Position numbers and translations under genes: made by a program. This document shows, piece by piece, positions 1,031-45,064 of a stretch of DNA of 45,064 bases. Below the pieces are notes generated by a model. The model saw only the letters and a list, made by a program, of their open reading frames with translations, had not been told where the DNA came from and made no database searches. The first letter of the stretch is position 1, and each line of letters opens with the position of its first letter. Location of the stretch: positions 1 through 45,064 of the IMG/VR virus record IMGVR_UViG_3300047173_000128, one strand, 5' to 3'. This DNA is from a virus.

Positions 1031-1729
1031 ATGCTCATCGGCTATGTTCGCGTCTCGAAGTCCGATGGCACCCAGACGCTTGCGCCGCAGCGGGACGCGA
1101 TGCTTGCCGCCGGCGTTTGCTCCGCCCGCATCTACGAGGACTTGGCGTCCGGCCGTAGCGACGCCCGGCCTGGCCTTGCTGCCTGTCTCAAGGCGATCCA
1201 ACCCGGCAACACTCTGGTGCTCTGGAAACTCGATCGGCTCGGCCGCGATCTGCGCCATCTGGTCAACACGGTCGAAGACCTGCGCACCCGGGGGGTTGGG
1301 TTGAAGGTGCTGACCGGGGCGGGCGCGCAGATCGACACGACGACTGCGAACGGACGTTTGGCATTCGGTATTTTCGCAGCCTTTGCTGAATTCGAAAGGG
1401 AGCTTATCGCGGAGCGCACCATGGCCGGGCTGGCCGCCGCACGCGCACGCGGACGGATGGGCGGACGGCCGCGTAAGATGGACCGCTCGACCCTCATGAT
1501 GGCGATGACGGCAATGGCGGACCGCAAGACGGTTGCGTCCGATGTGGCCATGCGGTTGGGGCTGACCACCACCACCCTCTATGTCTACGTCAACGGCGAC
1601 GGGACGGCGAAGGCGGCTGGTCAAGCGCTGCTCGATGGCGTGGTCCCTCCCGGCGCGGCAGCGAAAGCGCGGATCCGCCCACCCCAAGGACCGCCACTCA
1701 CCGTCCACCTCGAAACCGCGGGCGCGTGA
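1031..1729 (+). CDS. Serine recombinase (resolvase/invertase family)
   Basis: The 232-residue protein has an N-terminal resolvase catalytic domain: YVRVS with nucleophile Ser9, then WKLDRLGRDLRHL and FAEFERELIAERT, which carry the conserved arginines. A Gly/Arg linker (GRMGGRPRK, about residues 148-156) leads to a short C-terminal helix-turn-helix. In transposons of this type the enzyme resolves cointegrates at a res site, normally close upstream. ATG 1031 starts the MLIGYVRVS motif directly; the upstream codons look non-coding. The C-terminal ~50 residues extend beyond the usual family length and are Pro/Ala-rich. Its stop overlaps the transposase start by one base, so the two are probably translated together. 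Confidence 0.85.
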   Translation: MLIGYVRVSKSDGTQTLAPQRDAMLAAGVCSARIYEDLASGRSDARPGLAACLKAIQPGNTLVLWKLDRLGRDLRHLVNTVEDLRTRGVGLKVLTGAGAQIDTTTANGRLAFGIFAAFAEFERELIAERTMAGLAAARARGRMGGRPRKMDRSTLMMAMTAMADRKTVASDVAMRLGLTTTTLYVYVNGDGTAKAAGQALLDGVVPPGAAAKARIRPPQGPPLTVHLETAGA

Positions 1730-3396
1730 TGCCAGCGGCGAGCGCGGTGCCGGTCGAGGCGCTCGCGACTCTCCGCCGCCGTCTTGCGGCGCTGCCGGCG
1801 CGCCATCCCGAGCGCGCCGTGCTGATGGCGTCGACGGCACAGCTTTACGCCGTCAGTCGCGCCACGCTGTATCGCCTGTTGCGCGGCGACCGGCGCCCGA
1901 AAGACGCTCACCGCACTGACCGAGGTTCCCCCCGCTCCATGCCGGCGCCTGAGATTGAGCGCTGGTGCGAGATCGTCGCCGCAATGAAGATCAGGACCAC
2001 CAACCGCAAGGGCCGCCACCTTTCGACGGTGCGAACCTTGCAACTGCTTGTCGAGCACGGCGTCGATACGCCTGACGGGTTTCGGAAGCTCGACCCGGGT
2101 ACGCTGACCGCATCCACCCTCAATCGGCACCTGCGCCGTCTTGGTTACGACCACGAGCGGATGGTTCGCCAGCCTCCGGCCGTGCGCTTCCAGGCGGAGC
2201 GCTCGAACGCACTTTGGCACTTCGACATGAGCCCGTCGGATCTGAAGCAGTTGAAAGCGCCGCCCTGGATCGACGCCGATCGGCAGGGTGCGCCGACTTT
2301 GATGCTGTTCTCCGTTGTCGATGATCGTTCCGGGGTCGCCTACCAGGAATACCGCTGCGTCTATGGAGAAGACGCCGAGACGGCGCTGCGCTTTTTGTTC
2401 AACGCCATGGCGCTCAAGGCGTCTGCTGAGCAAAGCGAGAGCGATGCATTTCAGGGGATTCCGGACACGATCCACCTCGACAATGGACCGGTCGCGAAGT
2501 CGGCGGTGTTTAAGCGCGTGATGGAGAGCCTCGGCGTTGAGGTCCTCACCCACGTGCCCGCCGGTTCCGATGGAAGGCGAACGACGGCGCGTGCCAAGGG
2601 CAAGGTCGAGCGGCCATTCCGCACGGTCAAGGATGCGCACGAGACCCTTTACCATTTCCACGAACCTGAAACCGAAGCCGAGGCGAACCGTTGGCTGGCA
2701 CGCTTCGTTGCCACCTACAACCGCGGCGACCATAGATCCGAGCCGCATTCGCGCATCGACGACTGGCTGTCGCACTTGCCGGCCGAGGGGGTCCGCCAGA
2801 TGTGCGCTTGGGAGCGCTTCTGCGTCTTCGCGCGCGAACCCGAGCGTCGCCTGGTCGACATCGACTGCCGCCTGACCGTCGCGGGCGTCACCTATGAGGT
2901 CGATGCCGAACTCGCCGGCGAGACTGTCGTGGTCTGGTGGGGGCTCTTCGATCAGGAGCTTTGGGTTGAGCACGAGGAGGAGCGCCGCGGGCCGTTCCTG
3001 CCAGTTGGCGGCCCGATTCCGCTACACCGCTACCGCAAGCACCGGAAGTCGCGGCGGGAGGTGCGCGCCGATCAGGTGAGTGAACTCGCCGGTAAGCTTG
3101 CGCTGCCACGTGCGGCGCTGTCGGGCGAGGACGGCGTGGTCATGATCGGCACGCCTGCCGCTGCGGTGCCGGTACGGCCGTTCCGCGATCCCGACCCGTT
3201 CCATGAACTTGGATTTGCGAGCCAGATCGCGGCTCGCCGCGCGATTGCTGAGGAAATCAGACTGCCGCTCGCCAAGCTGTCCGACGAAGACAGGGCCTTC
3301 ATCGACACCCTGCTCAACCGGACCCTGATGCGCCCCGAGATACTCGCGGCGGTGCGGGAACGGTTTCCGCAGGGTCGCAGAGGAGGCGTCGGCTGA
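1729..3396 (+). CDS. DDE transposase (Mu/TniA-type integrase core)
   Basis: The 555-residue protein has an N-terminal helix-turn-helix region (about 1-130), an RNase H-like DDE core and a C-terminal beta-barrel region. Candidate catalytic residues are Asp166 (in WHFDMS), Asp251 (in HLDNGP) and Glu294 (in AKGKVERPF). It would cut and join the TGTA/TACA ends of the element. ATG 1729 is chosen because it overlaps the recombinase stop (TGATG); a GTG at 1726 is the alternative. The downstream ATPase gene overlaps the stop in the same way. The fold class is clear; I cannot say which named IS/Tn family it belongs to. Confidence 0.85.
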   Translation: MPAASAVPVEALATLRRRLAALPARHPERAVLMASTAQLYAVSRATLYRLLRGDRRPKDAHRTDRGSPRSMPAPEIERWCEIVAAMKIRTTNRKGRHLSTVRTLQLLVEHGVDTPDGFRKLDPGTLTASTLNRHLRRLGYDHERMVRQPPAVRFQAERSNALWHFDMSPSDLKQLKAPPWIDADRQGAPTLMLFSVVDDRSGVAYQEYRCVYGEDAETALRFLFNAMALKASAEQSESDAFQGIPDTIHLDNGPVAKSAVFKRVMESLGVEVLTHVPAGSDGRRTTARAKGKVERPFRTVKDAHETLYHFHEPETEAEANRWLARFVATYNRGDHRSEPHSRIDDWLSHLPAEGVRQMCAWERFCVFAREPERRLVDIDCRLTVAGVTYEVDAELAGETVVVWWGLFDQELWVEHEEERRGPFLPVGGPIPLHRYRKHRKSRREVRADQVSELAGKLALPRAALSGEDGVVMIGTPAAAVPVRPFRDPDPFHELGFASQIAARRAIAEEIRLPLAKLSDEDRAFIDTLLNRTLMRPEILAAVRERFPQGRRGGVG

Positions 3397-4367
3397 TGCT
3401 TACCGAAGTCATGCGATTTTACGGCCTGACGCGTCCGCCGATCGATGCCGGCTTCTTCGACACCGAGCACCATACCCAGGTGTCGCGCGACATCCATGCC
3501 GCGATCGTCGGCGGACGCCTGATCGCGCTGACCGCCATCATTGGCTCGGGCAAGACGATCCTGTCGCGACGACTGCGAGGCGATCTTGAACGCGAAGGCC
3601 GGGTCATCGTGTCGCGTTCGCTGTCGGTCGACAAGGCAAAGATCACCTTGCCGCTGCTGATTGCGGCCCTGTTCTACGACCTGAGCCCCGATAAGGTCAT
3701 CTCCATCTCGAATCAGTCAGAGCGACGCGAGCGCGATCTGCAGGAGTTGTTCCGTCGGGCCAAGAAGCCCGTGGCGCTGTTCATCGACGATGCCCACGAA
3801 CTTCATCCCAAGACACTTTCCGCGCTGAAGCGTCTTATCGAACTCGTCACCGAAGGCGGCGGGCAGTTGTCGATCGTGCTGATCGGGCACCCCAAGCTCA
3901 AGAACGACCTGCGCCGTCCAAAGATGGAAGAAATCGGCGACCGCACAACAGTTTTTGAATTCGGCGGTCTGCGGGACCGGCAACGCGACTACATCGACTG
4001 GGTGCTCAAGGCTTCACGCGACGAGCACATCGCGCCCGACGACGTTGTCACTGAAGAGGCGGCAACGATACTCGCGGCCAAGCTGAAGACACCGTTGCAG
4101 ATCGGACAGCATCTCGTGCGTGCTTTCGAGGCCGGGTTCGAAATCGGAGCAAAGCCGATTGATGCCGGCGTCGTCGAGGCGGTCCTCTCCCGTCAATTGA
4201 ATGACCTTGAGCCGCAACTGACGCGCAACGGCTACGATGTCCGCAGCCTTGTCGAGCAGTTCGATGCGAAGCCATCGGAAATCCGTCAGCTTCTCCGAGG
4301 TGATCTCGATCCGCGACGATCGCGAGAGCTCTTGGACGAAATGCGCGCAGCCGGGCTGCCTACATGA
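3396..4367 (+). CDS. AAA ATPase, transposition helper (ExeA/TniB-like)
   Basis: The 323-residue protein has Walker A IIGSGKT (Lys53) and Walker B ALFIDDAHEL (Asp131/Asp132, Glu135), followed by a sensor-type stretch IVLIGHPKL. The architecture matches ExeA-like and TniB/TnsC-like ATPases that load on target DNA and recruit the DDE transposase. Start ATG 3396 overlaps the transposase stop (TGATG). The 127 bases 3878-4004 in the middle of this gene recur exactly at the right edge of the window, joined in frame to a phage gene. Only about 10 bases separate its stop from the right-end repeat array. Confidence 0.85.
   Translation: MLTEVMRFYGLTRPPIDAGFFDTEHHTQVSRDIHAAIVGGRLIALTAIIGSGKTILSRRLRGDLEREGRVIVSRSLSVDKAKITLPLLIAALFYDLSPDKVISISNQSERRERDLQELFRRAKKPVALFIDDAHELHPKTLSALKRLIELVTEGGGQLSIVLIGHPKLKNDLRRPKMEEIGDRTTVFEFGGLRDRQRDYIDWVLKASRDEHIAPDDVVTEEAATILAAKLKTPLQIGQHLVRAFEAGFEIGAKPIDAGVVEAVLSRQLNDLEPQLTRNGYDVRSLVEQFDAKPSEIRQLLRGDLDPRRSRELLDEMRAAGLPT
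3878..4004 (+). repeat. 127-bp exact direct repeat, copy 1
   Basis: This segment is identical to 44938-45064, the last 127 bases of the window, at an offset of 41,060 bp. It lies inside the ATPase gene. The base just left of each copy differs (T versus C), and the right copy is cut by the window end. Confidence 0.95.
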
Positions 4368-4368
4368 T

Positions 4369-4535
4369 GAGTCTCAATGATCGTGCGTCGAACTCCATGA
4401 TCTCGCGTCGGTCTCAATGACCGTGCGCTGAGTCTCAGATAGCGTGCGCTGGAGGACCGCTTCAGTCTCAATCAATGTGCGTCGGGAATCGGCCTTGATT
4501 GCGCGTCGGAGCGTTCATCATTGCGCGTCGCTACA
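4369..4535 (-). repeat. Transposon right end, array of binding-site-like repeats
   Basis: Read on the minus strand from 4535, this 167-bp array carries TGTAGCGACGCGCAATGATG, CGACGCGCAATCAAGG, CGACGCACATT..TTGAGACTG, CGCACGCTAT..TGAGACT, GCGCACGGTCATTGAGAC, CGACGCGAGATCA and CGACGCACGATC..TTGAGACT. This is the same order as the left end and almost the same length (168 bp there). Confidence 0.75.
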
Positions 4536-4565
4536 GGTATGCGGCGATCATCGATATCGTGCCGG

Positions 4566-15243: not shown

Positions 15244-15440
15244 GCGGCCATACGGTCCAGGCTGTCACGCACCTCCGGATTGTCCAGCGCCAGGTTCAGC
15301 AGCCGCCATGTCGGTTCAGGCACCTCGATCTGCCGGGCCAGATACCGCTGCACGGTGCGGACATCGACGCCCAGCAGCGACGCCAGTCCCCCGGTCGTCA
15401 ACCCGAGGGCGGTGCGGATCGCGGGCAGGTCGCGGATCAA
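15219..15440 (-). CDS. Small helix-turn-helix regulator
   Basis: The 73-residue XRE-type helix-turn-helix (LPAIRTALGLTTGGLASLLG, VDVRTVQRYLARQIEVP) would regulate transcription in this cluster. TTG 15440 is proposed because it overlaps the stop of the upstream membrane gene (TTGA) and starts close to the fold; a frame open to 15518 would overlap that gene by 82 bp. Its 3' end overlaps the ParB-like gene by 25 bp on the other strand. Confidence 0.6.
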   Translation of the reverse strand: MIRDLPAIRTALGLTTGGLASLLGVDVRTVQRYLARQIEVPEPTWRLLNLALDNPEVRDSLDRMAAHAAAFAR

Positions 15441-15688
15441 TGGAACAGCTTTGCGAAGGCAAACGCCGCCGCAAAGAGGGCCGCGCCCGTGCCCATACTG
15501 CTGATGACGATTACCCACGGCGCAAACCGCATCTCTTGCCGCTTCCGGTCGGCGTCGGCGCGGAGCTGGTCCTGCTGGATGCGGAACGTCTCGGCTTGCA
15601 CGCGCATCATGTCGTGCGAGGCGAGGGCTTGATCGATCTGGGCCATCTTCAGCCGCAAATCGAAATCGGGGACGGGTGTGTCGCTCAT
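15437..15688 (-). CDS. Small coiled-coil membrane protein
   Basis: The 83-residue protein begins MSDTPVPDFDLRLKMAQIDQ, continues as a charged helix and ends in one membrane segment (FAPWVIVISSMGTGAALFAA). It resembles the protein at 41395-41604 (MSDTPERDPIDLRAVIARID, one membrane segment), so the phage has two related copies. Holin- or spanin-like use in lysis or superinfection functions is possible. ATG 15688 begins at the conserved MSDTP; GGA lies about 10 bases upstream. Confidence 0.6.
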   Translation of the reverse strand: MSDTPVPDFDLRLKMAQIDQALASHDMMRVQAETFRIQQDQLRADADRKRQEMRFAPWVIVISSMGTGAALFAAAFAFAKLFH

Positions 15689-31279: not shown

Positions 31280-34200
31280 ATGGTGCTTCGTCTTTCCTCG
31301 TTCCCGTCCGATGTGCGCGGGGTGGTCCTTACGGGCCTGAGCACGGCCACGAACGCGGTGGTCGCGGCGACGGACACGGTGCTGGCGGCGCTGGGCAAGC
31401 TCCAGGCGCAACTGGCAAACTACACGCTGAACGCCGCCGCGGCGATCACCGGCGGGTCCATCAACAGCGCAACGGTCGGCGCAACGACGCCATCCACGGG
31501 CGCGTTCACGTCGCTCAGCGCCACGGGTGCGGCGGCGCTGAGCAATGGAGCGACGATTGGCACTAACACCTCCGCGCCGTCACTCAATATCAACGGGATC
31601 GTCGGCTTTAATCGCGCGCTTTTTTTTCAGACCTCTGGCGTTTTCCGTTGGGAAATCTGCACCGATGCGTTCGCCGAAACGGGCAGCAATGCCGGCTCGC
31701 AGCTAGAGATTCTCCGGTTTTCGGATGCCGGCACACAAATCGATGCGCCGGTCGTCATCAACCGAGCGACCGGCCTCGTGACGATTGCCGACGGTTTAAC
31801 CGTATCCGGGGGCACGGTCTCCGGCGCCGGGATCACCAGCCTGTTCGCCTCGCCACCGGCGATCGGCGGGACCGCGCCGGCAGCGGGAACGTTCAGTCCG
31901 GGTCTAACGCTTTCGCATCAGTATAATAACGTTGTTTTCTGTGATGCGGTTACCGGGCCGACGTCAGGAGGATATCACCGGATCACATCGTCTGGTGCCG
32001 GCTCTTACGTGTGGCAGATCAACACCGCCTCGGCTGGCGACTTCTCGGCGATCACCACGGCGTTCTCCGTCGGGTCCACGGGTCAGGTTCAGTTCGGCGT
32101 CGCGCCCGCTGGACCCGGCACGACATTGCTATTCGCCTCGCCGCCCGCGATCGGCGGCACCGCAGCGGCGGCCGGCACGTTTACGGCGCTTACCGCCGCC
32201 TCCGGCACGGTCTCCAACGCCGTGATCAACACCGCCGCGCTCGATACCAGCCTGGATCTGAATTTCCTGTCCGGCGTGCTGGACAGCCGGATCACGTTCA
32301 CGCGGGCTTCGACGGCGACGTACTTCGACGCCACGGGCACGATGCAGACAGCGGCCGCGGGCGTTGCGCGGTTCGATCATGCACCCACGTTGGTGGCCAG
32401 CGCGAGCGCGCCCTACGTCTATACGCCGCTGGGGCTGCTGATCGAGGAAAGCCGGACGAACGTTGCTCTCTATAGCGGCAACATCGCCAATGCGGCTTGG
32501 GTGCTGGGAAGCGGTGTCGTGGCGGGGCCGACCGTCACCGCAAACGCGGCTGTGGCGCCAGACGGCACGACGACGGCGGCGCAAATCGTTTACCCGGCGG
32601 TTACGGGTGCATCGGCCTACAGTGCGTCCAATCAGGGGGTCATCGTCACTGCCGCTGTCTATTCATTCTCGGTCTATCTCAAAGGTGCGGCGGGTGGAGA
32701 GACGCTGTATATTTATACGACACCGAATGGCTCGACGTATTATCGCACGCCGGTTACCCTGACGACGGCTTGGCAGCGGTTTACTTTGACTACACCTGCA
32801 TTGACCGCAGCCGCATGGTATTTTGCTATCGGCACTGACCTGAGAGATGGCAGTCAAACCGCCAAATCCGCGCAGACGATCTACGCCTGGGGCGCGCAAG
32901 TAGAACTCGGCGCCTTCCCCACGTCCTACATCCCGACCACCAGCGCGGCGGTGACGCGGGCGGCGGATGTGGCGACGATGCCGGTGGGGAGCTGGTTCAA
33001 CGCGGCGGCGGGAACGCTTGTCGCGGATGCCAACTTTCTCAACAACAACCGTGTCGGCTACCCTGGCGTCTTCCAAATCGACAGCGGCAGCAACACCAAT
33101 CGCTTGCTGACGTATGCTCTGACCGGATCCGACACGATCGCAGCCAACTCCGATACTGCGCAGTTCAACATGGGGTCGTTCACGGCCGGGACGATTTTCC
33201 GGAGTGGCATTGCTTATTCGGCCTCGGGGTTTACCGCCGCGGCTTTGGGGGTCGCTACGTCGCTCAATGGCCACGTTTCGTCCTATGCCTCGTACACGAC
33301 GTTGCGCCTCGGTGTGGCCGACGCCAGCGGCAGCAACGTCGCGGACGGCTACATCGTTCGCGTCCGCTACTGGCCGCGCGCACTCTCGACCGCCGAACTG
33401 CAAACCGTCACCGCGAGCGCCACGCCCGCGCTGCTCAACCTCGCGATCGACCAGTGCCCGATCGGCGCCACGAACCCGAGTTCCGGCGCGTTCACTACGT
33501 TGGCGGCTTCTTCGACAGTCAGTGGCGCTGGCTTCTCGACCTACCTAGCCTCCCCGCCCGCGATCGGCGGAACAGCGCCCTCGACCGGCGCCTTCACCGC
33601 GCTGACCGCGAGCGGCGGCACAATCTCCAACGCCGTGATCAACACCGCCGCGCTCGATACCAGCCTGGACCTGAATTTCCTGTCCGGCGTGCTGGACAGC
33701 CGGATTTCGTTCACCCGAGGCTCGGTCGCGACGTATTTCGACGCGAACGGGGTGATGCAGACGGCGGCGGCGAACGTGGCGCGGTTCGATCATGCACCCA
33801 CGTTGGTGGCCAGCGCGAGCGCGCCCTACGTCTTTACGCCGCTCGGGCTGCTGATCGAGGAGAGCCGGACAAACTCGATACGCAATTCGACGATGGTGGG
33901 CGCGGTTGCAGGGACGCCCGGGACGCTGCCGACGAATTGGGCGGCCAATACCATATCCGGCGTGACCAACAGCGTTGTCGGAACCGGCACAGAAGGCGGT
34001 ATCGCTTATATTGACTTGTCCTATGCCGGAACGCCCGCTTCTAGCGGACAGTTGTTCATCTCGATGGAAGACGGAACGATATCGCTCACTTCGGGGACAA
34101 CATACAGCCAATCCATCTATGTGCGTCTGACTGCCGGAAGCCTGACGAATACCACACTGATGGAAATTTTCGGTGTCGCCGCCGCCGTGACAGTAACGCC

Positions 34201-35314
34201 AACCGGCGCAGCTCTCGTATCGCAGCGGACAATCAACGTTCAGACTGCCGCTTCCACCACCACCACACAGCCCTATTTCGCCTTCAACGTCACCAGCGGA
34301 CAGGCGATTAACCTGACCTTACGCATCGGCGCCCCACAGTTCGAAACCGGCGCCTTCGCGACCTCCTACATCCCGACCACCAGCGCGGCGGTGACGCGGG
34401 CGGCGGATGTGGCGACGATGCCGGTGGGGAGCTGGTTCACGCAGGGTCTGGGCAGCTTGGACACCGAGGCCATGGTTCCAGTATCGGCGGGCAGCCAGTA
34501 TCCGAACCTGGCGTCGATCAGCGACGGCACGAATTCAAATTATGTGTCGGTATTTTATGATGGACCGTACACGCGCTTTGAGTCCGGCATCGTTGTCGGC
34601 GGCACTGCGAACTTCTCCAGCTTTTCTTTGAGCACGGCAGGGCTAACCGCAGGGTCCGTTGCCAAGACGGTCTTGGCGTGGTCGAGCGGCACGGCGAGCT
34701 TCGAGGTCAATCCTGGCTCTGGATCGGTCGCGGTCGCGACAGCGTCGGCGACGATTCCGTCCGGCCTGACGACACTGACGCTGGGCTGCGCGCCTAATTT
34801 GGGCGTCGTCGGCGCTCGGTATCTCCGCCGCGTCCGCTACTGGCCACGCGCCCTCTCCACCACCGAACTGCAAGTCGTCACCGCGAGCGCCACGCCCGCG
34901 CTGCTCAACCTCGCGATCGACCAGTGCCCGATCGGCGCCACGAACCCGAGTTCCGGCGCGTTCACCACGATCACGCTGTCCCAGGCCGAGATCGACGCGT
35001 CCGCCTACACCACCGCACCCGTGACCGGCGGCACGGTGACGATCCCCGGCACAGCGGCGCGCTGCGTCATCAACCCGGCCGGCACCCTGGCCGCGTTGAC
35101 CGTCGTTTCTCCGGCGGCGCTCTCGCTCGGCGCCAACAGCGTGCAGAGCCTCGACATCCTGTTCACCCAGGCGATCACGTCGCTCACCTGGAAGGCGGGC
35201 TCGGGCACCACCTTTGGGGGTGCGGCGATGCCCTCTACCGTGGCGCTGGGAACGTGCGTGCGGCTGTTGTGGGTGCAGTCGCTGTCGCAATGGCTTCATA
35301 CGACGGTGGTGTAG
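31280..35314 (+). CDS. Giant tail fibre/spike with duplicated adhesin modules
   Basis: The 1344-residue Gly/Ser/Thr/Ala-rich protein is the longest of the window. Two large modules (about residues 310-735 and 780-1230) share the start NTAALDTSLDLNFLSGVLDS, DHAPTLVASASAPYV and TPLGLLIEESRTN, plus a middle TSYIPTTSAAVTRAADVATM and end ATPALLNLAIDQCPIGATNP, while the parts between differ widely. The modules resemble 'head spike fibre' LamG-like domains that bind receptors. The shared edges are near-identical in DNA; the inner parts are A/T-richer. Confidence 0.75.
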   Translation: MVLRLSSFPSDVRGVVLTGLSTATNAVVAATDTVLAALGKLQAQLANYTLNAAAAITGGSINSATVGATTPSTGAFTSLSATGAAALSNGATIGTNTSAPSLNINGIVGFNRALFFQTSGVFRWEICTDAFAETGSNAGSQLEILRFSDAGTQIDAPVVINRATGLVTIADGLTVSGGTVSGAGITSLFASPPAIGGTAPAAGTFSPGLTLSHQYNNVVFCDAVTGPTSGGYHRITSSGAGSYVWQINTASAGDFSAITTAFSVGSTGQVQFGVAPAGPGTTLLFASPPAIGGTAAAAGTFTALTAASGTVSNAVINTAALDTSLDLNFLSGVLDSRITFTRASTATYFDATGTMQTAAAGVARFDHAPTLVASASAPYVYTPLGLLIEESRTNVALYSGNIANAAWVLGSGVVAGPTVTANAAVAPDGTTTAAQIVYPAVTGASAYSASNQGVIVTAAVYSFSVYLKGAAGGETLYIYTTPNGSTYYRTPVTLTTAWQRFTLTTPALTAAAWYFAIGTDLRDGSQTAKSAQTIYAWGAQVELGAFPTSYIPTTSAAVTRAADVATMPVGSWFNAAAGTLVADANFLNNNRVGYPGVFQIDSGSNTNRLLTYALTGSDTIAANSDTAQFNMGSFTAGTIFRSGIAYSASGFTAAALGVATSLNGHVSSYASYTTLRLGVADASGSNVADGYIVRVRYWPRALSTAELQTVTASATPALLNLAIDQCPIGATNPSSGAFTTLAASSTVSGAGFSTYLASPPAIGGTAPSTGAFTALTASGGTISNAVINTAALDTSLDLNFLSGVLDSRISFTRGSVATYFDANGVMQTAAANVARFDHAPTLVASASAPYVFTPLGLLIEESRTNSIRNSTMVGAVAGTPGTLPTNWAANTISGVTNSVVGTGTEGGIAYIDLSYAGTPASSGQLFISMEDGTISLTSGTTYSQSIYVRLTAGSLTNTTLMEIFGVAAAVTVTPTGAALVSQRTINVQTAASTTTTQPYFAFNVTSGQAINLTLRIGAPQFETGAFATSYIPTTSAAVTRAADVATMPVGSWFTQGLGSLDTEAMVPVSAGSQYPNLASISDGTNSNYVSVFYDGPYTRFESGIVVGGTANFSSFSLSTAGLTAGSVAKTVLAWSSGTASFEVNPGSGSVAVATASATIPSGLTTLTLGCAPNLGVVGARYLRRVRYWPRALSTTELQVVTASATPALLNLAIDQCPIGATNPSSGAFTTITLSQAEIDASAYTTAPVTGGTVTIPGTAARCVINPAGTLAALTVVSPAALSLGANSVQSLDILFTQAITSLTWKAGSGTTFGGAAMPSTVALGTCVRLLWVQSLSQWLHTTVV
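32211..32292 (+). repeat. Fibre gene duplication, edge A copy 1
   Basis: 82 bp matching 33624-33705 with one difference, at offset 1413. A second shared block follows at 32368-32420 (identical to 33781-33833). Confidence 0.85.
33411..33495 (+). repeat. Fibre gene duplication, edge B copy 1
   Basis: 85 bp identical to 34881-34965. A middle block 32923-32999 is likewise identical to 34363-34439. Together these outline two ~1.4-kb modules with conserved joints and changed interiors. Confidence 0.85.
33624..33705 (+). repeat. Fibre gene duplication, edge A copy 2
   Basis: Second copy of the 32211-32292 block, one difference. Confidence 0.85.
34881..34965 (+). repeat. Fibre gene duplication, edge B copy 2
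   Basis: Second copy of the 33411-33495 block, identical. Confidence 0.85.
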
Positions 35315-35316
35315 CA

Positions 35317-35697
35317 ATGACCCACTACGCACTCACCACGGGCGACAGCGTCCTGCGTTTGGACGACCAGGCGCTGATCCCGGCCGATCCGAACAACCCT
35401 GACTGGGTCGCGTATCTGGCATGGAAGGCCGCGGGCAACACGCCGAACCCGGCGACGCTGAAATCGCCGCCCACGATCCTCCAGGCGGCCGCCTTCTTCG
35501 CCCGCTTCACGCCGGCCGAGCAGGCGGCGATACAGGCGGCAGCGGCGGCCAGCCCGCAGATCGGCGTCGGCCTGACGCTCGGCCTGGCGCAAGGCTACGT
35601 CAACCTGCTGAGCCCGATCCTGGCCGGCTGGATGGCGGCACTCGTCGCCGCCGGGGCGATCACCTCCGCGCGCTCGGCGGTTATCATGACGCCATGA
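35317..35697 (+). CDS. Tail fibre assembly-like protein
   Basis: The 126-residue protein contains IPADPNNPDWVAYLAWKAAG, a phrase typical of fibre-assembly or fibre-accompanying proteins, followed by Ala-rich helices and a hydrophobic end. Following the giant fibre gene by 2 bp, it may help fold or attach it. Its stop overlaps the next gene (ATGA). Confidence 0.6.
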   Translation: MTHYALTTGDSVLRLDDQALIPADPNNPDWVAYLAWKAAGNTPNPATLKSPPTILQAAAFFARFTPAEQAAIQAAAAASPQIGVGLTLGLAQGYVNLLSPILAGWMAALVAAGAITSARSAVIMTP

Positions 35698-36743
35698 CGC
35701 CGCCGCCGTTCGTCGTTTTCAGCCTGCCCCGATCGCGCTCGGCCTGGATGGCGCAATGGCTCAGCCGTGTTGCGAACGCCCCGGTGGGCCATGACCTGGC
35801 CATCGAGACGGACAGCATCGACGCCTGGCTGGAGACCGTGTTCCGCCGGGTGCGCGGTACCTGCGAGACCGGCGCCGTCGAGGCCTGGCCGATCCTGCGC
35901 CGCGCCATCCCCGACTGCCGCATCGTCACGGTGACGCGCGACATCAACGACGTTGGCGAGAGCCTGGGCGATGCTGGCTATCCGGTGCCGTGGGATGATT
36001 TGCGGCGCCGAGCCGAAGCGATGGCCGAACTGGCGCGGCAGCCGGGCGTGCTGTCAGTGACGTTCGCCAACCTCGCCTATCCCCGCACCTGCGCCGCGGT
36101 GCAGGAGCATTGCCTGAGCATCCCGTTCAACTGGCCGGCGTGGCTGGAGGCGGATTGCACCAACGTCCAGGTTGACATGCCGGCGCGGCTGGCGCGGCTG
36201 GCGGAACGGCACCCCGCCATCATGCGGATCCGCGCGGAGCTGATCGAGCGCCTGGCGCATCCGGCGCCGTTCGTGTCCGTCGGCGAGGAACGCTGGCCGG
36301 ACGTGGCGGATCGGTGCGAGGCGCTGGGCGCCGGCCACCACGCCGAGGCCACCGAGGGCCTGGAGGGGCCGTTCCGGCTCAACCGCGATCTGGTCATGCA
36401 GATGGCAAACGCCGGACTGTGGCGGGTGTTCATCGCCCGCGTCGACGGGGCGCTGGCGGGTTACTGCTGCTGGACGCACGAGACCAACCACGAGGCGGAC
36501 GCCCCGCTGACGATGGCGCACGGCCCGTTCTACGTGGTCGCGGCGCACAAGCGGCACCATCTCGGGCTGCGGCTGCTGGAGGCATCGCGCACGGCGTTCG
36601 CGGCGGCGGGTTACCGGGTGCTCAAGCTGCATCACACGATGCACGGCCGGGGCGCGCGGGCCGGGGGGCTCTATTCGTTCCTTGGCGCAACCGAGTATCA
36701 GCGTGAGTATATCTGGCGGATCGGAGAGACATCTGATGGCTAG
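35694..36743 (+). CDS. Sulfotransferase-like and GNAT acetyltransferase fusion
   Basis: The 349-residue protein has an N-terminal half with VVFSLPRSRSAWMAQWLSRV, a phosphosulfate-binding loop as in sulfotransferases, plus CRIVTVTRDINDVGESLG (second phosphate-binding strand-helix). The C-terminal half (about 235-345) has a GNAT fold: FIARVDGALAGYCCW, VVAAHKRHHLGLRLLEASR (acetyl-CoA pyrophosphate loop), TEYQREYIWR. Encoded between fibre and ejection genes, it may modify a virion or host component; substrates are unknown. It overlaps both neighbours (4 and 8 bp). Confidence 0.7.
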   Translation: MTPPPFVVFSLPRSRSAWMAQWLSRVANAPVGHDLAIETDSIDAWLETVFRRVRGTCETGAVEAWPILRRAIPDCRIVTVTRDINDVGESLGDAGYPVPWDDLRRRAEAMAELARQPGVLSVTFANLAYPRTCAAVQEHCLSIPFNWPAWLEADCTNVQVDMPARLARLAERHPAIMRIRAELIERLAHPAPFVSVGEERWPDVADRCEALGAGHHAEATEGLEGPFRLNRDLVMQMANAGLWRVFIARVDGALAGYCCWTHETNHEADAPLTMAHGPFYVVAAHKRHHLGLRLLEASRTAFAAAGYRVLKLHHTMHGRGARAGGLYSFLGATEYQREYIWRIGETSDG

Positions 36744-37500
36744 TATTTCGGCCCCGGCGGCAATTCTCGGCGCGGGCGCACTCGGCGCGGGCACCTCGCT
36801 GCTCGGATCGTCGATGTCCGCCGGCGCGGCAAGCAACGCCGCCGGACTGCAACAGCAGCAGTTCCAGACGACGCGCGGCGACCTGCTTCCGTACAATCAG
36901 GCCGGCCAGTCGGTGCTGGGCAACCTCACCTCGCTGGCGACCTCAGGAGCGAACGGCGGGGGTCCTAACTACCTCGCGCAGGCCGCGTCGAGCCTGCCCG
37001 GGCAGATGACCGAGGCGCAGCTCCAGCAGACGCCGGGCTATCAGTTCCAGCTCAACCAGGGCACGCAGGCCACACAGAACGCCGCCGCGGCGCGCGGCCT
37101 CGGGGTATCGGGAGCGGCGCTGAAAGGGGCTGCGGCCTATGCCACCGGTCTGGCGGACAGCAACTACCAGAACCAGTTCCAGAACGCCCAGACGCAGTTC
37201 TCCGATCTGTACAACCTCAACACCGGCCAGCAGACGAACGTGCAGAACCAGTACAATCGGCTGTCGGGTGTCGCCAGCCTTGGCGAGAACGCCGGCGCGC
37301 AGACCGGGGCGCAAGGCACGCAGGCGGCGTCCAACGCCGGCAACGCGCTGATGTCGGCGGGCAATGCGACCGCAGCCGGGATCAGCGGCGTCGGCAACGC
37401 GGCGACCGGGGCGGCGAACAACTACCTGAGCTACAACGCGCTGCAGAACTACCTGGGCGGTGGCAATTCAGCCGCGACGCAGAGTACGCAGTGGAGCTAG
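36736..37500 (+). CDS. Ejection-type internal virion protein
   Basis: The 254-residue protein has a hydrophobic Ala/Gly N-terminus (PAAILGAGALGAGTSLLGSS), then a Gln/Asn/Ala-rich helical body (YQNQFQNAQTQFSDLYNLNT). It resembles P22 gp7-type ejection proteins in composition, size and place (first of three genes before the transglycosylase). GGAGAG precedes ATG 36736. It would enter the host envelope with the DNA. Confidence 0.65.
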   Translation: MASISAPAAILGAGALGAGTSLLGSSMSAGAASNAAGLQQQQFQTTRGDLLPYNQAGQSVLGNLTSLATSGANGGGPNYLAQAASSLPGQMTEAQLQQTPGYQFQLNQGTQATQNAAAARGLGVSGAALKGAAAYATGLADSNYQNQFQNAQTQFSDLYNLNTGQQTNVQNQYNRLSGVASLGENAGAQTGAQGTQAASNAGNALMSAGNATAAGISGVGNAATGAANNYLSYNALQNYLGGGNSAATQSTQWS

Positions 37501-37508
37501 GTAATCAG

Positions 37509-39047
37509 ATGTCCGGCAGCAGCAACGCCCTCCTCGACAGCCTGGCGCACCCGGCGCAGATCAACCTGCTGGCCGATTACGGCGGCGCGGCGCAGACCGC
37601 CAACGCGATCTGGGAGAACCGCGCGTGGCAGGCGAAGCAGGCGGCGGGACAGAACTTCCTGAACTCGATCAACCCCGATGGCACGCCGAACCAGAACGCC
37701 TTGCTGCAAGGTGCCAAGAACACGCCGGGGATGGCGCTCGTTGCCCAGCCTTCGGCGCAGGCCGGGCAGACGCTGAGCGCCGACACGCAGAACCAGAACC
37801 TGCAACTGCGCGCCACCGTCAACCAGATGCTGCCGAGCCTGCTCAACCTGCCGCCCGACAAGCTTCATGCCGGGGTCGTCAACGGCTTTACCCAGCTTGA
37901 GAACGCCGGACTGATGACGCATCAGCGCTCGCTGCAGATCATGAGCGGGTTCAGCAATGACCCGGCGCAGCTTCAGGTGCAGTTGGGTCAGCTTCAGAAG
38001 TCGCTGCTGCCGGCGCAGGAGCAGATCGACCAGACCTACGGCACCAGGCCAGCAGTCAATACCGGCGGGGCGACGGTGTTCCCGGTGGTGCCGCCCGCGT
38101 CGGCCGGCGGGGCGGGGCCGGTGGTGCCGATGACGATGACGCCGGGTGAGGCCAGCACGCCAACGCCGATCGGCGTCACGCCGCAGGGCCAGACGGTCAC
38201 GGGCACCCGCGGCCAGTTTGTTGGAGCCGCAACCGGCAGTGCGCCTTCGCCGCTCGGGTCGGGCCGACCGCCGCCGGGCTCGCCGTTGCTCAATCCGGCG
38301 GCTCCTGCCGCCGGAACCTCGCCTTCGCCGGCCGGGGCTGCATCTGGAGGAACGGCACCAGCGATCGGCACTGGGGCGCCAGGCGGCGGAATCGTAACCG
38401 GTCTTGGACCGGCGCAAACGGCGGCACTCGACGTGAAAGGCAAGCAAAGCGCGGCCGATTTCCAGGGTTATGCCGCGGACGGTGACAGGGCGGTGCAGCA
38501 GAATGCTATCCTGGGCAACATGCTCGCCGACACCAAAGGCTTTACGACCGGACCGGCCAATGCTCGGATCAAGGCTTTCCAGTCCTTCGCTTCTACCTAC
38601 GCGCCAAAGATGTCCGCGTTTGTCGGTGTTGATCCCAAGACGGTTGCGGCAAACGAGTCCTTCGACAAGCTCGCGGCTCAGCTCGCGAACGCGCAGGGCG
38701 CCGGTTCCGATGCGCGGCTTATGGTTAACCAGGCGGCGAACCCGCACGGGGAAATGGCGCCGGCAAGCGTCGATCTGGTGCTCCGGCAACTTCAAGGCAA
38801 TGCTGATTACAAGATCGCCAAGCAGACACTCGCCAACGCCTACCCGGACAAGACCGATTCGACCGGTTTCGAGACTGCGATGCAACGCAACCTAGACCCA
38901 CGAGCGTTCCAGTTCGCCCGGATGACAGTGCCACAGCGGAAAACCTATGTCGCAGCATTGTCGCCGCAGGACCTGACAGCGGTAAAGGGCGGCTATAACT
39001 GGGCGGTGACGCATGGAATGATCGGCGCGGGCAATGCCGCTCAATGA
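37509..39047 (+). CDS. Second ejection-type internal virion protein
   Basis: The 512-residue protein has a helical N-terminal third (NALLDSLAHPAQINLLADYG), a Pro/Gly/Ala-rich linker (about 185-300) and a helical C-terminal part (ADFQGYAADGDRAVQQNAIL). Probably P22 gp20-like by position. ATG 37509 with AGG 9 bases upstream; GTG 37491 is also in frame. It overlaps the next gene by 14 bp. Confidence 0.6.
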   Translation: MSGSSNALLDSLAHPAQINLLADYGGAAQTANAIWENRAWQAKQAAGQNFLNSINPDGTPNQNALLQGAKNTPGMALVAQPSAQAGQTLSADTQNQNLQLRATVNQMLPSLLNLPPDKLHAGVVNGFTQLENAGLMTHQRSLQIMSGFSNDPAQLQVQLGQLQKSLLPAQEQIDQTYGTRPAVNTGGATVFPVVPPASAGGAGPVVPMTMTPGEASTPTPIGVTPQGQTVTGTRGQFVGAATGSAPSPLGSGRPPPGSPLLNPAAPAAGTSPSPAGAASGGTAPAIGTGAPGGGIVTGLGPAQTAALDVKGKQSAADFQGYAADGDRAVQQNAILGNMLADTKGFTTGPANARIKAFQSFASTYAPKMSAFVGVDPKTVAANESFDKLAAQLANAQGAGSDARLMVNQAANPHGEMAPASVDLVLRQLQGNADYKIAKQTLANAYPDKTDSTGFETAMQRNLDPRAFQFARMTVPQRKTYVAALSPQDLTAVKGGYNWAVTHGMIGAGNAAQ

Positions 39048-41394: not shown

Positions 41395-41604
41395 CTAGCC
41401 GCGCCCGAACGCGTGCAGTATTTCCGGCAGCCGGGCGATCACTGCGGCCAGGATGGCGCCCGCGACGGTCAGCGGCACAATCCAGCGCTCGCGGTTGAAC
41501 TTGCGCGCTTCGGCCAACAATTTGACGTTCTCAGCAAGGTCTCGGTCAATTCTGGCGATGACCGCCCGCAGGTCGATCGGATCCCGTTCGGGGGTGTCGC
41601 TCAT
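41395..41604 (-). CDS. Small membrane protein, relative of the 15437 product
   Basis: The 69-residue protein (MSDTPERDPIDLRAVIARID, RDLAENVKLLAEARKF) ends in one membrane helix (WIVPLTVAGAILAAVIARLP). It shares its MSDTP start and layout with the 15437-15688 protein. ATG 41604 is chosen by this match; no good Shine-Dalgarno is seen. It starts a leftward pair with the 40951 membrane gene, opposite to the lysis genes. Confidence 0.6.
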   Translation of the reverse strand: MSDTPERDPIDLRAVIARIDRDLAENVKLLAEARKFNRERWIVPLTVAGAILAAVIARLPEILHAFGRG

Positions 41605-41760
41605 CGCGGAACACCCGCGCCAATGCTGACACGGGTGATGATTTTTTCTATGTAACGGGAAGCCTTCGGCATGGGTCAACTCCATACGGTGGGTCAGAGG
41701 TGGCCGGTGTGTCGAGCACCGCGCCGCCTCGTCCATGCCGCTTTCCTTGGTGTTTGTCAA

Positions 41761-41800
41761 CGAACGTTCATCCTACGTTCGCGTGTCCGGTTTTAACCGG
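41761..41800. promoter_or_regulatory. Two palindromes before the lysis genes
   Basis: CGAACGT (41761) / ACGTTCG (41775-41781) and CCGGTTTTAACCGG (41787-41800) lie back to back 60-100 bp before the gene at 41858, in the 250-bp gap between divergent genes. They may be operators of the lysis transcript. Confidence 0.4.
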
Positions 41801-41857
41801 CTGGCAACCGTTCGCATGCGATGAGCGCCAGCACCGAGATCGTTTCGCTGTGGTGCC

Positions 41858-42625
41858 ATGAAAATCCTGTTGGTCGACGACGACGACGCGCAGCGCAGGG
41901 TCGCCGCCCAGTTGCTTGGCCACGACGGTAACGAGGTTGTCGAGGCGTCGAGCGGTGAAGCCGCGGTCGCCGCGGCCGCAGCGGCGAACTTTGATCTCGT
42001 CCTGATGGACGTCCGTATGGCCGGCGGGATCGACGGCATCGAGGCCACCCGCCGCATCCGCAGTCTCGCCGGCACCCGCGGGCGTCTGCCGATCGTGGCG
42101 ATGAGCGCGGCGGGCGTGCCGGAACAGACCTGGCGCGGCGCAGGTGCCGATGGCTTCATGGACAAGAATCGCGCCTTCGACGACGGGCTGGTCGAGGCGG
42201 TGAAAGCAGCGATCGGGAGCGCTTCGAAGGGCAGGACAGTATCGTTCGAGGTGCCGCCGGCTGCCCCGGCCAAAGTCGAGACCGATGGTTTCTACGTTCC
42301 GCGCATCGTGTTCATTACGGTCTTGCTGGGATTTCCGGCGCTCATCGCCAGCGGCGCCTGGTACATGGGCACGCAAGCGGCCGAGGCCCGGAACCTGGCC
42401 AAGGTCCAGGTCGACGATGCGCGGCGCCTGGCCGACGCGGTGGTGACCGCGCGGACCGAGATCGAGGCCGAGCAGGCGGCCCTGAACGCCCGCGTGGCGG
42501 TGAACGGTGAGGCTGTGGTGAAGCTGGATCGTGATCATACCGAGAGCATCAACCGGATCGACCAGCGGCTGACCCGGCTGGAGGCGCAGATGAGTTTCTT
42601 CGTCAGTACCGGCGGCCGCAGATAA
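41858..42625 (+). CDS. Receiver domain fused to membrane anchor and coiled coil
   Basis: The 255-residue protein starts with a complete-looking response-regulator receiver domain (1-115): acid cluster in ILLVDDDDAQ, phosphoacceptor Asp51 (LVLMDVRMAGG), Ser83 (IVAMSAAG) and Lys103 (FMDKNRAF), with spacing as in CheY. After a Pro-rich linker comes one membrane helix (about 148-170, IVFITVLLGFPALIASGAWY), then a long coiled coil (about 175-245). No output domain or kinase is present. The next gene encodes a lipoprotein and overlaps by 1 bp, giving an inner-membrane/outer-membrane spanin-like pair. That pairing is inference. Confidence 0.8.
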   Translation: MKILLVDDDDAQRRVAAQLLGHDGNEVVEASSGEAAVAAAAAANFDLVLMDVRMAGGIDGIEATRRIRSLAGTRGRLPIVAMSAAGVPEQTWRGAGADGFMDKNRAFDDGLVEAVKAAIGSASKGRTVSFEVPPAAPAKVETDGFYVPRIVFITVLLGFPALIASGAWYMGTQAAEARNLAKVQVDDARRLADAVVTARTEIEAEQAALNARVAVNGEAVVKLDRDHTESINRIDQRLTRLEAQMSFFVSTGGRR

Positions 42626-43056
42626 TGCGGTGTGTCGCGCTGCTGCTGCTGACGAGCACGTTGTGCGGCTGCGGCTGCACCTGCGGATCAAAGGCAGAGC
42701 CGCCGGCGGCGGCGGTGGAGGCGCCACGGCCCGCGACACCCGCGCTGAAGCCGCCGCCCTCGGCCGGCCCGGCGAAGGCAAGTGCCGATCCGGTCGCCGA
42801 GGTCGCGAGCCTTTCGCCGCACCAGGTGATCGTTGCCGCGGAGGCGGCGCACGACGACGCGGCCGGCTATGTGGCCTGGCGCGAGAGCAAGCCCACAAAC
42901 ATCGAACGACTGACGGTGCTGACCCGCGATCTGGACGGGGCGATCACCCGGATGCGGGCGCATGAGGTCGGCCACAAATACCCGCCGGGCGATGTCTTCG
43001 CCGCGCGCGCGGCGCTGCGGGCACTGCGGTTGTTCCTGCGGGAGAAAGGAGACTAG
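42625..43056 (+). CDS. Proline-rich lipoprotein, o-spanin-like
   Basis: The 143-residue protein has a signal sequence CVALLLLTSTLCGC with lipobox-like LCGC (lipidated Cys16 likely; Cys14, 18 and 20 nearby). A Pro/Ala-rich stretch (EPPAAAVEAPRPATPALKPP) and a helical C-terminal half (HQVIVAAEAAHDDAAGYVAW) follow. Outer-membrane spanins are short proline-rich lipoproteins next to i-spanin genes; this one is longer than most. TAATG overlap with the receiver-domain gene. Confidence 0.65.
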   Translation: MRCVALLLLTSTLCGCGCTCGSKAEPPAAAVEAPRPATPALKPPPSAGPAKASADPVAEVASLSPHQVIVAAEAAHDDAAGYVAWRESKPTNIERLTVLTRDLDGAITRMRAHEVGHKYPPGDVFAARAALRALRLFLREKGD

Positions 43057-43058
43057 CC

Positions 43059-43280
43059 ATGGCATCAGCCGACGCCTGGACCAAGGCGCAGACCGCCCAA
43101 TTCATCCACGCGACGGGTGTGTCGCTGACCAACCCGGCGCTCAAGGCAGAAGAGCGCGCAGTGCTGGAGGCCGAGCGCGACGGTGCCAACGCCTGGCTGC
43201 GCTACCTGGAGGCCATCGAGGTGATGAAGGTGCCTGCGGACAGCGCACCTCGCGGCATGACCCGGGGGGAGCGCCTGTAG
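43059..43280 (+). CDS. Hypothetical protein of lysis region
   Basis: The 73-residue protein (SADAWTKAQTAQFIHATG, LKAEERAVLEAERDGANAWL) is helical. Strong GGAGAAAGGAG precedes the ATG at 43059. Not recognised; perhaps a helper of holin or spanin. Confidence 0.6.
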   Translation: MASADAWTKAQTAQFIHATGVSLTNPALKAEERAVLEAERDGANAWLRYLEAIEVMKVPADSAPRGMTRGERL

Positions 43281-43281
43281 G

Positions 43282-43875
43282 ATGGCCAACTTCGGCGCCG
43301 ATGTGCTTGATATAGTAGGAGCGGTCGCGCCGACGATCGCGACGGCGCTCGGCGGCCCGTTGGCAGGTCTCGGGGTGCGCGCGATTTGTGGGGCGCTCGG
43401 CCTGGCGCCCGACACGCCGCCGGAAAAGGTGGCCGACGCGGTGACCGCCGCGACACCGGATCAGCTTCTGGCGCTGAAGCAGGCGGACAATGCCTTCGCC
43501 GCGCAGATGAAGCAATTGGACGTCGACTTCGCCAAGCTGTCGCAGGCCGACGTGGCGAGCGCGCGCCAGCGCGAGGTCGCCGTGCACGACCACACGCCGT
43601 CGATCCTGGCCTTCTCGCTGACGCTTGGCTTCTTCGGCCTGCTCGGGCTGATGGCGTTTCACGCGCTGCCGGCCGACAACATGGCGCCGGTCAATATCAT
43701 GCTGGGCGCCCTGGGCACGGCATGGATGGCCGCGATGAACTATTTCTTCGGCAGCACATACGGGTCGAAGACCAAGGACGCGATGCTGTTCCAGTCGGTG
43801 CCGGCCTCTTCTTTGCCGGCTCCGCCGGTAGGGAGGTCGCCTAGTCTTGTCGGCGCGGGAGCAAACCATGGATAA
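43282..43875 (+). CDS. Holin, 3-TM GTA-type
   Basis: The 197-residue protein has a helical N-terminal part with a first hydrophobic segment (APTIATALGGPLAGLG), then QADVASARQREVAVHD, TPSILAFSLTLGFFGLLGLM and VNIMLGALGTAWMAAMNYFF, ending in GSTYGSKTKD. This matches 3-TM holins known from gene-transfer agents and alphaproteobacterial phages. It would form holes that release the endolysin. Overlaps the endolysin gene by 8 bp. Confidence 0.8.
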   Translation: MANFGADVLDIVGAVAPTIATALGGPLAGLGVRAICGALGLAPDTPPEKVADAVTAATPDQLLALKQADNAFAAQMKQLDVDFAKLSQADVASARQREVAVHDHTPSILAFSLTLGFFGLLGLMAFHALPADNMAPVNIMLGALGTAWMAAMNYFFGSTYGSKTKDAMLFQSVPASSLPAPPVGRSPSLVGAGANHG

Positions 43876-44497
43876 GCCGCATCAGTATGTCCGCGGCGGC
43901 GTATCGTGGGCGGTTCTGCCTGACGGGATCAGCATCGATGGTGCCGCACCGGTCGGCACCGCTGGGCCGCCGGAGACAGTGCGGCGCGTGCTCGGATGGT
44001 TTGGCCCGGCGATCGAAGCCGCGAGCGATGTGTTCGGCGTGCCGAAAGCGGTGCTGGTCGCGATCATCTGCAACGAGAGTGCCGGCGGCGTGACCGACCT
44101 TGAGCAGGTGCAGACGGCGCGGCGGGAGGAGCCGGGCTATGTTTCGGAGCATGCGACGCCGGACCGGGTCAGTGTCGGCTGCTGCCAGACGCTGGTGTCG
44201 ACCGCGCGGGCCGCGCTGATGCGCCCGGCGCTGTCAGCGCTCGATCTGTGCGTGCCGGAGACCTCGATCCTGGCAGCGGCTGGCTACATTGCCTCGCAGC
44301 GTCGCGTGACGCAGTTCGATCCGGTGCTGATCGCGGCGGCCTACAATGCCGGCGGCCTGCACCCGGAGCCCATCTCTGTGAACCGCTGGGGTCTGCGCTG
44401 CTATCCGCTGAACACGGGACAATACATCGACCGGTTCGTGCTCTGGTACAACGATGCGGTGGCGGTGCTGGGGCACCTGAATGGCTCTCCAAGTTAG
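43868..44497 (+). CDS. Endolysin, transglycosylase-like
   Basis: The 209-residue protein has a lysozyme/SLT-like fold: VFGVPKAVLVAIICNESAGG (candidate catalytic Glu70), VSVGCCQTLVSTA and PVLIAAAYNAGGLHPEP. It should cut peptidoglycan at the end of the lytic cycle. ATG 43868 has GGGAG 7-11 bases upstream; it sits directly after the holin, the usual place. Confidence 0.8.
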   Translation: MDKPHQYVRGGVSWAVLPDGISIDGAAPVGTAGPPETVRRVLGWFGPAIEAASDVFGVPKAVLVAIICNESAGGVTDLEQVQTARREEPGYVSEHATPDRVSVGCCQTLVSTARAALMRPALSALDLCVPETSILAAAGYIASQRRVTQFDPVLIAAAYNAGGLHPEPISVNRWGLRCYPLNTGQYIDRFVLWYNDAVAVLGHLNGSPS

Positions 44498-44669
44498 CGA
44501 GCTTGGCCGGCTTGCTCTCCACAACGCCGGCCCTGGTCCGAAACGCGGCTCGGACGCTGCCATGGCCGCGCGTCTTGATGACATCATCCCCAAACTTGGC
44601 CCGGCGGGCGGGGACCTCCCGCCGGGTTCCTTTCGAGGACTGACCAATGTTCATGGTGAACGAGGGTGA
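44481..44669 (+). CDS. Hypothetical frame after endolysin
   Basis: A 62-residue product (ALQVSELGRLALHNAGPG, RLDDIIPKLGPAGGD) spans a strong hairpin at 44600-44626 and overlaps the endolysin end by 17 bp and the next gene start by 23 bp. No family recognised. It may not be translated. Confidence 0.35.
   Translation: MALQVSELGRLALHNAGPGPKRGSDAAMAARLDDIIPKLGPAGGDLPPGSFRGLTNVHGERG
44600..44626 (+). terminator. Hairpin after lysis genes
   Basis: A 9-bp perfect stem (CCCGGCGGG / CCCGCCGGG) with a 9-base loop is followed by TTCCTTTC. Likely a terminator of the lysis transcript; U tract incomplete. Confidence 0.55.
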
Positions 44670-44841
44670 GGCCGCGCTGATCCGCGCAGCTTACGAGCAC
44701 GGCGGCGAGGTGTCGGCGGCGGCTGAGATGTGCCGGCTGTTCCCGGGCCTGACCGACCAGGTGCAGGCGCGGCTGTCGGCGCGGATGATCGCGGGGTGGC
44801 GGCCGATTGTGCTAAAGTCGGGCGATGAAGATCACCGTTGA
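44647..44841 (+). CDS. Small helical protein
   Basis: The 64-residue protein (FMVNEGEAALIRAAYEHGGE, VSAAAEMCRLFPG) has GAGGA about 9 bases before the ATG at 44647. Perhaps a late or early small regulator; unknown. Overlaps the next gene by 17 bp. Confidence 0.5.
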   Translation: MFMVNEGEAALIRAAYEHGGEVSAAAEMCRLFPGLTDQVQARLSARMIAGWRPIVLKSGDEDHR

Positions 44842-45064
44842 GCCGACCGAGGAATTCTTCATGGCCGGCGATGTCATGTGCCGGATGTGGCAAGGGACCG
44901 CCGATCACGGCGACGGGCGGACAGAACCGTGCGTCGCGCTGATCGGGCACCCCAAGCTCAAGAACGACCTGCGCCGTCCAAAGATGGAAGAAATCGGCGA
45001 CCGCACAACAGTTTTTGAATTCGGCGGTCTGCGGGACCGGCAACGCGACTACATCGACTGGGTG
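44825..45064 (+). CDS. Phage small gene joined in frame to the transposon ATPase (partial)
   Basis: The first 38 codons encode a phage-type start (MKITVEPTEEFFMAGDVMCR, MWQGTADHGDG). From codon 39 on the DNA and reading frame are those of the AAA ATPase gene (LIGHPKLKNDL..., ATPase residue 162 on). The frame is open to the end of the window. If the 127-bp repeat marks circularity, translation would go on to 4367 and give a ~200-residue chimera; if it is an assembly joint, the true gene continues differently. Confidence 0.55.
   Translation, partial: MKITVEPTEEFFMAGDVMCRMWQGTADHGDGRTEPCVALIGHPKLKNDLRRPKMEEIGDRTTVFEFGGLRDRQRDYIDWV
44938..45064 (+). repeat. 127-bp exact direct repeat, copy 2 (window end)
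   Basis: Identical to 3878-4004. It touches the very end of the window, as an unresolved shared k-mer of an assembly would. Confidence 0.95.

Follow-up and report, generated by a model that had tools for sequence, protein, structure and literature searches.

A predicted phage inner-membrane spanin with an intact response-regulator receiver domain

Spanins are held to be passive devices freed by the loss of peptidoglycan, and the timing of lysis is credited to holins. The locus described here, in which a CheY-type receiver domain stands at the head of a phage lysis cassette on a membrane protein whose gene overlaps that of a lipoprotein, raises the question of whether the signalling state of the host might act on the last step of lysis. 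The window analysed is the whole of the IMG/VR virus record IMGVR_UViG_3300047173_000128 (45,064 bases), and the coordinates of the features discussed are collected in Table 1.

The protein set of the record is that of a P22-like podovirus, with profile matches to the portal (phrog_156), coat (phrog_283), terminase and head-closure (Hc3) proteins. DNA-ejection proteins and a transglycosylase ejection protein are also encoded, an integrase and a transposase lie in the left half, and no tRNA genes were found in the 45,064 bases. The relatives of the head-closure protein include Acetobacter phage phiAX1, Belnapia rosea gave the best endolysin match among the three genomes tested, and prophage-like places in Acetobacteraceae hold relatives of the probable holin, making an Acetobacteraceae-type host likely. 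A by-eye look at the predicted genes of the left half revealed no phage-borne histidine kinase.

Several other features of the record were observed. Positions 693-4536 hold a transposon-like element with 167-nt inverted ends that are 84% identical. Like Tn5053/Tn402-type elements, it carries genes for a resolvase, an AAA ATPase and a DDE transposase (phrog_310). The 1344-aa tail gene (31280-35314) contains internal repeats of 97-300 nt, spaced at ~1.4 kb and 85-95% identical, which suggests domain duplication. The last 131 bases of the contig (44934-45064) are a 99% duplicate of 3874-4004, in the middle of the AAA-ATPase gene (3396-4367), which suggests a join made in assembly or a junction left by a transposon; an 80-aa ORF at 44825 runs into this duplicate, and the related contig described below continues differently there.

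Table 1. Features of the lysis region and its flanks (positions in the window)
Feature	Position	Strand	Basis
LexA-box-like GTTC-N7-GTTC, 77 bp before receiver gene	41766..41780	+	motif scan
Upstream block, 93% DNA identity to relative, ending where the swapped pair begins	41597..41823		blastn, alignment
Receiver-TM-coiled-coil gene, 255 aa, proposed i-spanin with N-terminal receiver	41858..42625	+	ORF, coding score, Pfam, AF2 model
CheY-type receiver domain, residues 1-123 (D8, D9, D51, S83, K103)	41858..42226	+	Pfam, AF2, PDB searches
Disordered Pro/Ala-rich linker, residues 127-158, includes TM start	42236..42331	+	pLDDT < 50
Single transmembrane (TM) helix, residues 150-168	42305..42361	+	hydropathy 2.08
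Predicted periplasmic rod: helix to 216, hinge 217-219, helix 220-250	42362..42607	+	sequence, AF2
Lipoprotein gene, 143 aa, proposed o-spanin	42625..43056	+	lipobox, sequence
Pro-rich segment of lipoprotein, residues 24-56	42694..42792	+	sequence
Downstream block, 86% DNA identity to relative, beginning at lipoprotein gene end	43041..44944		blastn
73-aa protein of unknown function, between proposed spanin pair and probable holin	43059..43280	+	85% identity in relative
phrog_1544 membrane protein, probable holin	43282..43875	+	profile, cassette context
SLT-domain endolysin	43868..44497	+	Pfam SLT E=1.2e-07

The first gene of the pair has a high coding score, and the N-terminal part of its product matches the receiver family PF00072 over residues 3-108 (E=3.3e-19; 69.5 bits against a cut-off of 30.2). 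All other Pfam domains fell below their cut-offs, and no output domain of known type follows the receiver. The phosphotransfer residues are intact, with the acid pair D8/D9 and the phospho-Asp D51 accompanied by S83 and K103; a first-pass annotation of this DNA had reported Asp51, Ser83 and Lys103 in CheY-like spacing, and they occupy exactly these positions. The two prolines conserved among receivers, which follow Met54 and Lys103, are replaced, and one residue is inserted at 55-57. An AlphaFold model, for which the input alignment consisted of 25 cellular receivers, gave the alternating receiver fold over residues 1-123 with a pLDDT of about 87-98, and searches of the PDB by sequence and by fold returned receivers only. 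It is probable that the predicted receiver is able to be phosphorylated.

The membrane helix (mean hydropathy 2.08) is internal rather than N-terminal. The 87 residues C-terminal to it contain neither Pro nor Cys and are predicted to form two helices (to 216 and 220-250), the first of which takes in the end of the membrane anchor in the AlphaFold model, and heptad periodicity in this part is modestly above that of shuffled sequences (p about 0.025-0.05). Of the membrane helix and coiled coil originally proposed, the helix is confirmed, and the coiled coil stands as two predicted helices with modest heptads. We saw no export signal ahead of the receiver that might place it outside the cytoplasm; a receiver lacking such a signal, with a cytoplasmic fold and an internal anchor behind it, points to an N-in topology in which the receiver would be cytoplasmic. 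A second, receiver-less internal start, as in lambda S/S', was considered and rejected: in-frame starts exist at residues 101, 115 and 132, and none of them pairs a strong Shine-Dalgarno match with the receiver-TM interval.

The ATG of the lipoprotein gene begins on the last base of the stop codon of the receiver gene (TAATG), and by the usage of PMC6139136 this 1-nt overlap places the pair in the 'separated' gene class. With a lipobox (TLCGC, Cys16), Gly at +2 (no Asp), 10% Pro and a Pro-rich segment near its start, the product agrees with the overlapping, Pro-rich lipoprotein first described. The i-protein contains no Cys, and the mature lipoprotein contains Cys18 and Cys20. The probable holin and the endolysin, previously placed within 900 bp, start 226 nt and 812 nt, respectively, after the lipoprotein stop. 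The family of the former, phrog_1544, is listed as 'unknown function' in PHROGs; its members have one or two TMs and in several of the examined phages and prophages adjoin the gene of an endolysin or cell-wall hydrolase, and it is probably an unrecognised holin family.

Evidence on the role of the pair comes from a near relative, the viral contig IMGVR_UViG_3300048502_000085 (L092), which shares a tail block (34746-38150) with the window at 97.5% DNA identity. In the lysis region, protein identity is 85% for the 73-aa protein, 73% for the probable holin and 86% for the endolysin. Between the conserved flanks, exactly the receiver gene and the lipoprotein gene are replaced, by two genes without recognisable sequence relation to them. 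The product of the first (L092 9189-9740; 183 aa) has no receiver; 28 N-terminal residues lead into its one TM, which is followed by a coiled-coil-like tail. The second (L092 9737-10087) overlaps it and encodes a 116-aa lipoprotein with the lipobox VAGC and a Pro-rich start. A spanin module would be expected to behave in this way, with two genes swapped together, in either phage a TM/helix protein and a lipoprotein, immediately ahead of the probable holin and endolysin genes. The relative also shows, to judge from the layout of these genes, that the same site works without a receiver.

Consistent with this, a scan of both strands of the 45-kb window for a TM-plus-tail protein paired with a lipoprotein found one such pair and no second spanin-like pair, and the only credible lipoprotein in the record is that of 42625-43056. 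Applied to related loci (512 kb, reverse strands), the same scan gave 2 pairs, indicating that the pattern is rare by chance. Neither protein of the pair showed significant similarity to characterised spanins in profile or blast searches. Weak profile echoes were obtained between the TM/coiled-coil part and the Rz-like spanin phrog_10152 (E=0.0097), and between the relative's lipoprotein and the Rz-like spanin phrog_456 (E=0.039). Given the swap for a receiver-less TM/lipoprotein pair, and since the scan of the window found no rival spanin, we have good confidence that the locus encodes a two-component spanin pair. The i-spanin/o-spanin reading of the first-pass annotation is accordingly well supported: the relative has a lipoprotein partner, and no separate spanins were found elsewhere in the record.

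The layout is that of known two-component systems such as lambda Rz/Rz1, T4 PseT.3/PseT.2 and P2 LysB/LysC, with a one-TM inner-membrane protein bearing a helical periplasmic domain, followed by the gene of a Pro-rich lipoprotein in a lysis cassette. According to excerpts of the spanin survey PMC6139136, 507 of 528 known two-component spanins have a periplasmic Cys in one or both proteins, and their commonest combination is that seen here, an i-spanin without Cys beside an o-spanin with 2. The same excerpts describe lambda Rz as having two periplasmic helices with a hinge, which the predicted rod resembles, and count more than 120 i-spanins without a predicted coiled coil; they also report an N-terminal addition of 19 residues. 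Unlike known two-component spanins, the protein described here carries a 123-residue receiver and a linker ahead of its anchor, and it showed no significant sequence similarity to known spanin families. The inner-membrane spanins of phiCbK-like Caulobacter phages likewise come from alphaproteobacterial phages and have extra N-terminal parts, for which the authors suggest an additional role in lysis (PMC3556154). In those spanins the addition is hydrophobic, with one or two more TMs, whereas here it is a signalling receiver.

The fusion is known from one contig of an uncultivated phage. We fetched 80 further viral loci (L135-L214), one of them the relative itself, with the alignment of the probable holin as query, and a profile search detected a receiver in none of these 80 other phrog_1544 cassettes. 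Among the viral contigs and phage records searched, no relatives of the full protein, the TM/coiled-coil half or the lipoprotein were found, and a scan of the viral contigs with one pattern from the receiver alignment likewise gave none; the scans of viral contigs used short peptide patterns of low sensitivity, so the fusion may not be unique. Other viral receivers among the fold matches belong mostly to histidine kinases and soluble regulators, and one viral fold match, the BFVD entry A0A8S5LY51 (298 aa, 'Response regulator protein', Myoviridae sp. ctrnx29), aligns with the AlphaFold model over 259 columns. The fusion had been called new at the outset, and searches of the literature on spanins with a receiver domain or CheY turned up no such protein and no link between spanins and two-component receivers. 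Two papers that use both terms deal with other matters, one of them to judge by its title and abstract. In the other, PMC12642591, the N4 pinholin gp63, also a membrane protein of phage lysis, is proposed to have a regulatory part in the cytoplasm, but its 'Receiver domain' is a label for a cluster of lysis-timing mutations, and the paper mentions neither response regulators nor two-component systems; we rejected it as a precedent, the likeness being a coincidence of words.

Cellular relatives of the receiver point to its source. Across 299 Acetobacteraceae genomes the best receivers were 44-52% identical over the matched stretch and lay in ORFs of ~700-1400 aa; the four best-match ORFs that were scanned all encode HisKA-HATPase-REC kinases, three of them also with HPt. 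The closest cellular receiver matches overall have about 50-57% identity. In a small tree, whose sampling is biased by similarity, the phage receiver groups with Acetobacteraceae hybrid-kinase receivers on a long branch (support 0.7-0.84). It shares its phosphotransfer residues and fold with the receivers of hybrid kinases (GacS D1, RcsC, RpfC and the Acetobacteraceae HisKA-HATPase-REC-HPt proteins, the last at about 50% identity), but is detached from a kinase and fused to an anchor and a periplasmic rod. For the TM/coiled-coil half and the lipoprotein, matches in Acetobacteraceae genomes were no more than marginal and are put down to composition, and the holin relatives in Acetobacteraceae prophages are without receivers nearby, the lone receiver found sitting in an ORF of >1000 aa (L134). 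Most likely, the receiver was added at the i-spanin N-terminus from a host hybrid histidine kinase.

The explanation we favour overall, at a probability of roughly 0.4, is that the pair is a two-component spanin in which host phosphorylation of the i-spanin receiver tunes the outer-membrane step. The first gene would encode an i-spanin with a cytoplasmic receiver and a flexible linker ahead of its inner-membrane anchor. The two helices behind the anchor would form a periplasmic rod, whose tip the o-spanin lipoprotein would bind after its sorting to the outer membrane. Once the endolysin had stripped the peptidoglycan, the pair would fuse both membranes, like Rz/Rz1. Before the holin fires, host hybrid kinases or their HPt domains would phosphorylate D51, and the phosphorylated receiver might alter self-association of the i-spanin or its gathering place in the inner membrane, so that the signalling state of the cell would bear on the readiness of the outer-membrane step. 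Holin triggering should collapse ATP and membrane potential before the spanins act, which would limit phosphorylation at the time of spanin action. The disordered linker of ~30 residues makes stiff mechanical gating across the membrane unlikely, and speaks for a receiver that acts through clustering or tethering, or as a kinase decoy, more than for one that passes on a signal rigidly.

That phosphorylation modulates the spanin or lysis at all is thus a tentative hypothesis, somewhat short of even odds, and the stronger version, in which the phosphorylation state of the receiver sets whether or when the outer membrane is disrupted, as a post-translational host-state checkpoint on release, is doubtful. 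The proposal of the first-pass annotation, that host kinases could gate lysis or the phage sense the state of its host, is likewise hypothetical. If true, a spanin with an intact two-component receiver would open the outer-membrane step to input from signalling and show that phages recruit parts of host phosphorelays into lysis proteins. The idea of an alphaproteobacterial phage tying lysis to a host phosphorelay is shared with CtrA-dependent lytic deferment, which acts by transcription via the host regulator (PMC9437464), whereas here the phage lysis protein itself would be the point of control.

In one of the two main rival readings, the receiver sits on a working spanin without controlling it: tethered to the membrane, it would act as a sink and draw phosphate off host hybrid kinases or HPt proteins late in infection, for example those of envelope-stress relays. 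Its closest relatives are hybrid-kinase receivers, which are phosphorylated by the kinase core of the same protein and hand the phosphate on to HPt, the disordered linker suits tethering close to membrane kinases, and some phage proteins alter host two-component systems (abstract of PMC10714779). However, a free receiver would serve equally well without fusion to a lysis protein, and late lysis genes are made once host signalling matters little; we consider this unlikely. In the other, an ordinary spanin would carry the receiver as an inert passenger, captured by recombination and tolerated since an i-spanin needs only a membrane tether, which is what the replaceable transmembrane domain of lambda Rz is thought to be (PMC3556154). 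The use of a receiver-less pair at the same site in the relative and the singleton distribution of the receiver fit such a history, but the retention of all phosphotransfer residues at ~50% identity does not, as an unused domain on a long branch should lose them, and 122 codons are costly for a phage; this, too, seems improbable.

There is a small chance that the locus is not a spanin, but a phage membrane signalling protein and an unrelated lipoprotein (e.g., for superinfection exclusion) that were inserted where the lysis operon begins. While neither protein has a characterised homologue, the genome would then have no detectable spanin, and the relative's two-gene swap to the same TM/coiled-coil and lipoprotein layout would be a coincidence. 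To an assembly artefact, by which the receiver would be joined to the TM/coiled-coil gene only in this contig, we assign next to no weight. The duplicate of an internal gene at the contig end indicates that the record is not free of joins, but the relative matches on either side of the pair, no break interrupts the reading frame, and the receiver and membrane halves have equal composition (GC 0.69/0.66, GC3 0.84/0.84); moreover, the receiver begins with its own Met and has no kinase remnant, and the searches gave no close cellular match, the best being about 50-57% identical. The fusion of the receiver to a membrane/helix protein is real in the sequence.

Upstream of the operon, the GTTC-N7-GTTC motif, which we take to resemble the alphaproteobacterial SOS motif (LexA box), lies inside the block common to the relative. 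This motif is expected 1.17 times per window by chance, and SOS control of the lysis operon is therefore only a lead. A CtrA site (TTAA-N7-TTAA) was also considered, and none was present near the receiver gene; RNA structure in the upstream region gave a z of -1.55, short of significance. Two similar-looking small proteins, encoded in opposite orientation at 41395-41604 and 15437-15688 (minus strand), both start with MSDTP and have a coiled coil followed by a C-terminal TM, and one of them is divergent from the lysis operon. Finally, stand-alone OmpR-type winged-helix (Trans_reg_C) proteins were observed in related phages of the Acetobacteraceae type, close to lysis or structural genes, one at L084:11465-11809 (Pfam E=3.6e-15) and another, identified by eye only, at L116:3951-4319 (minus strand).
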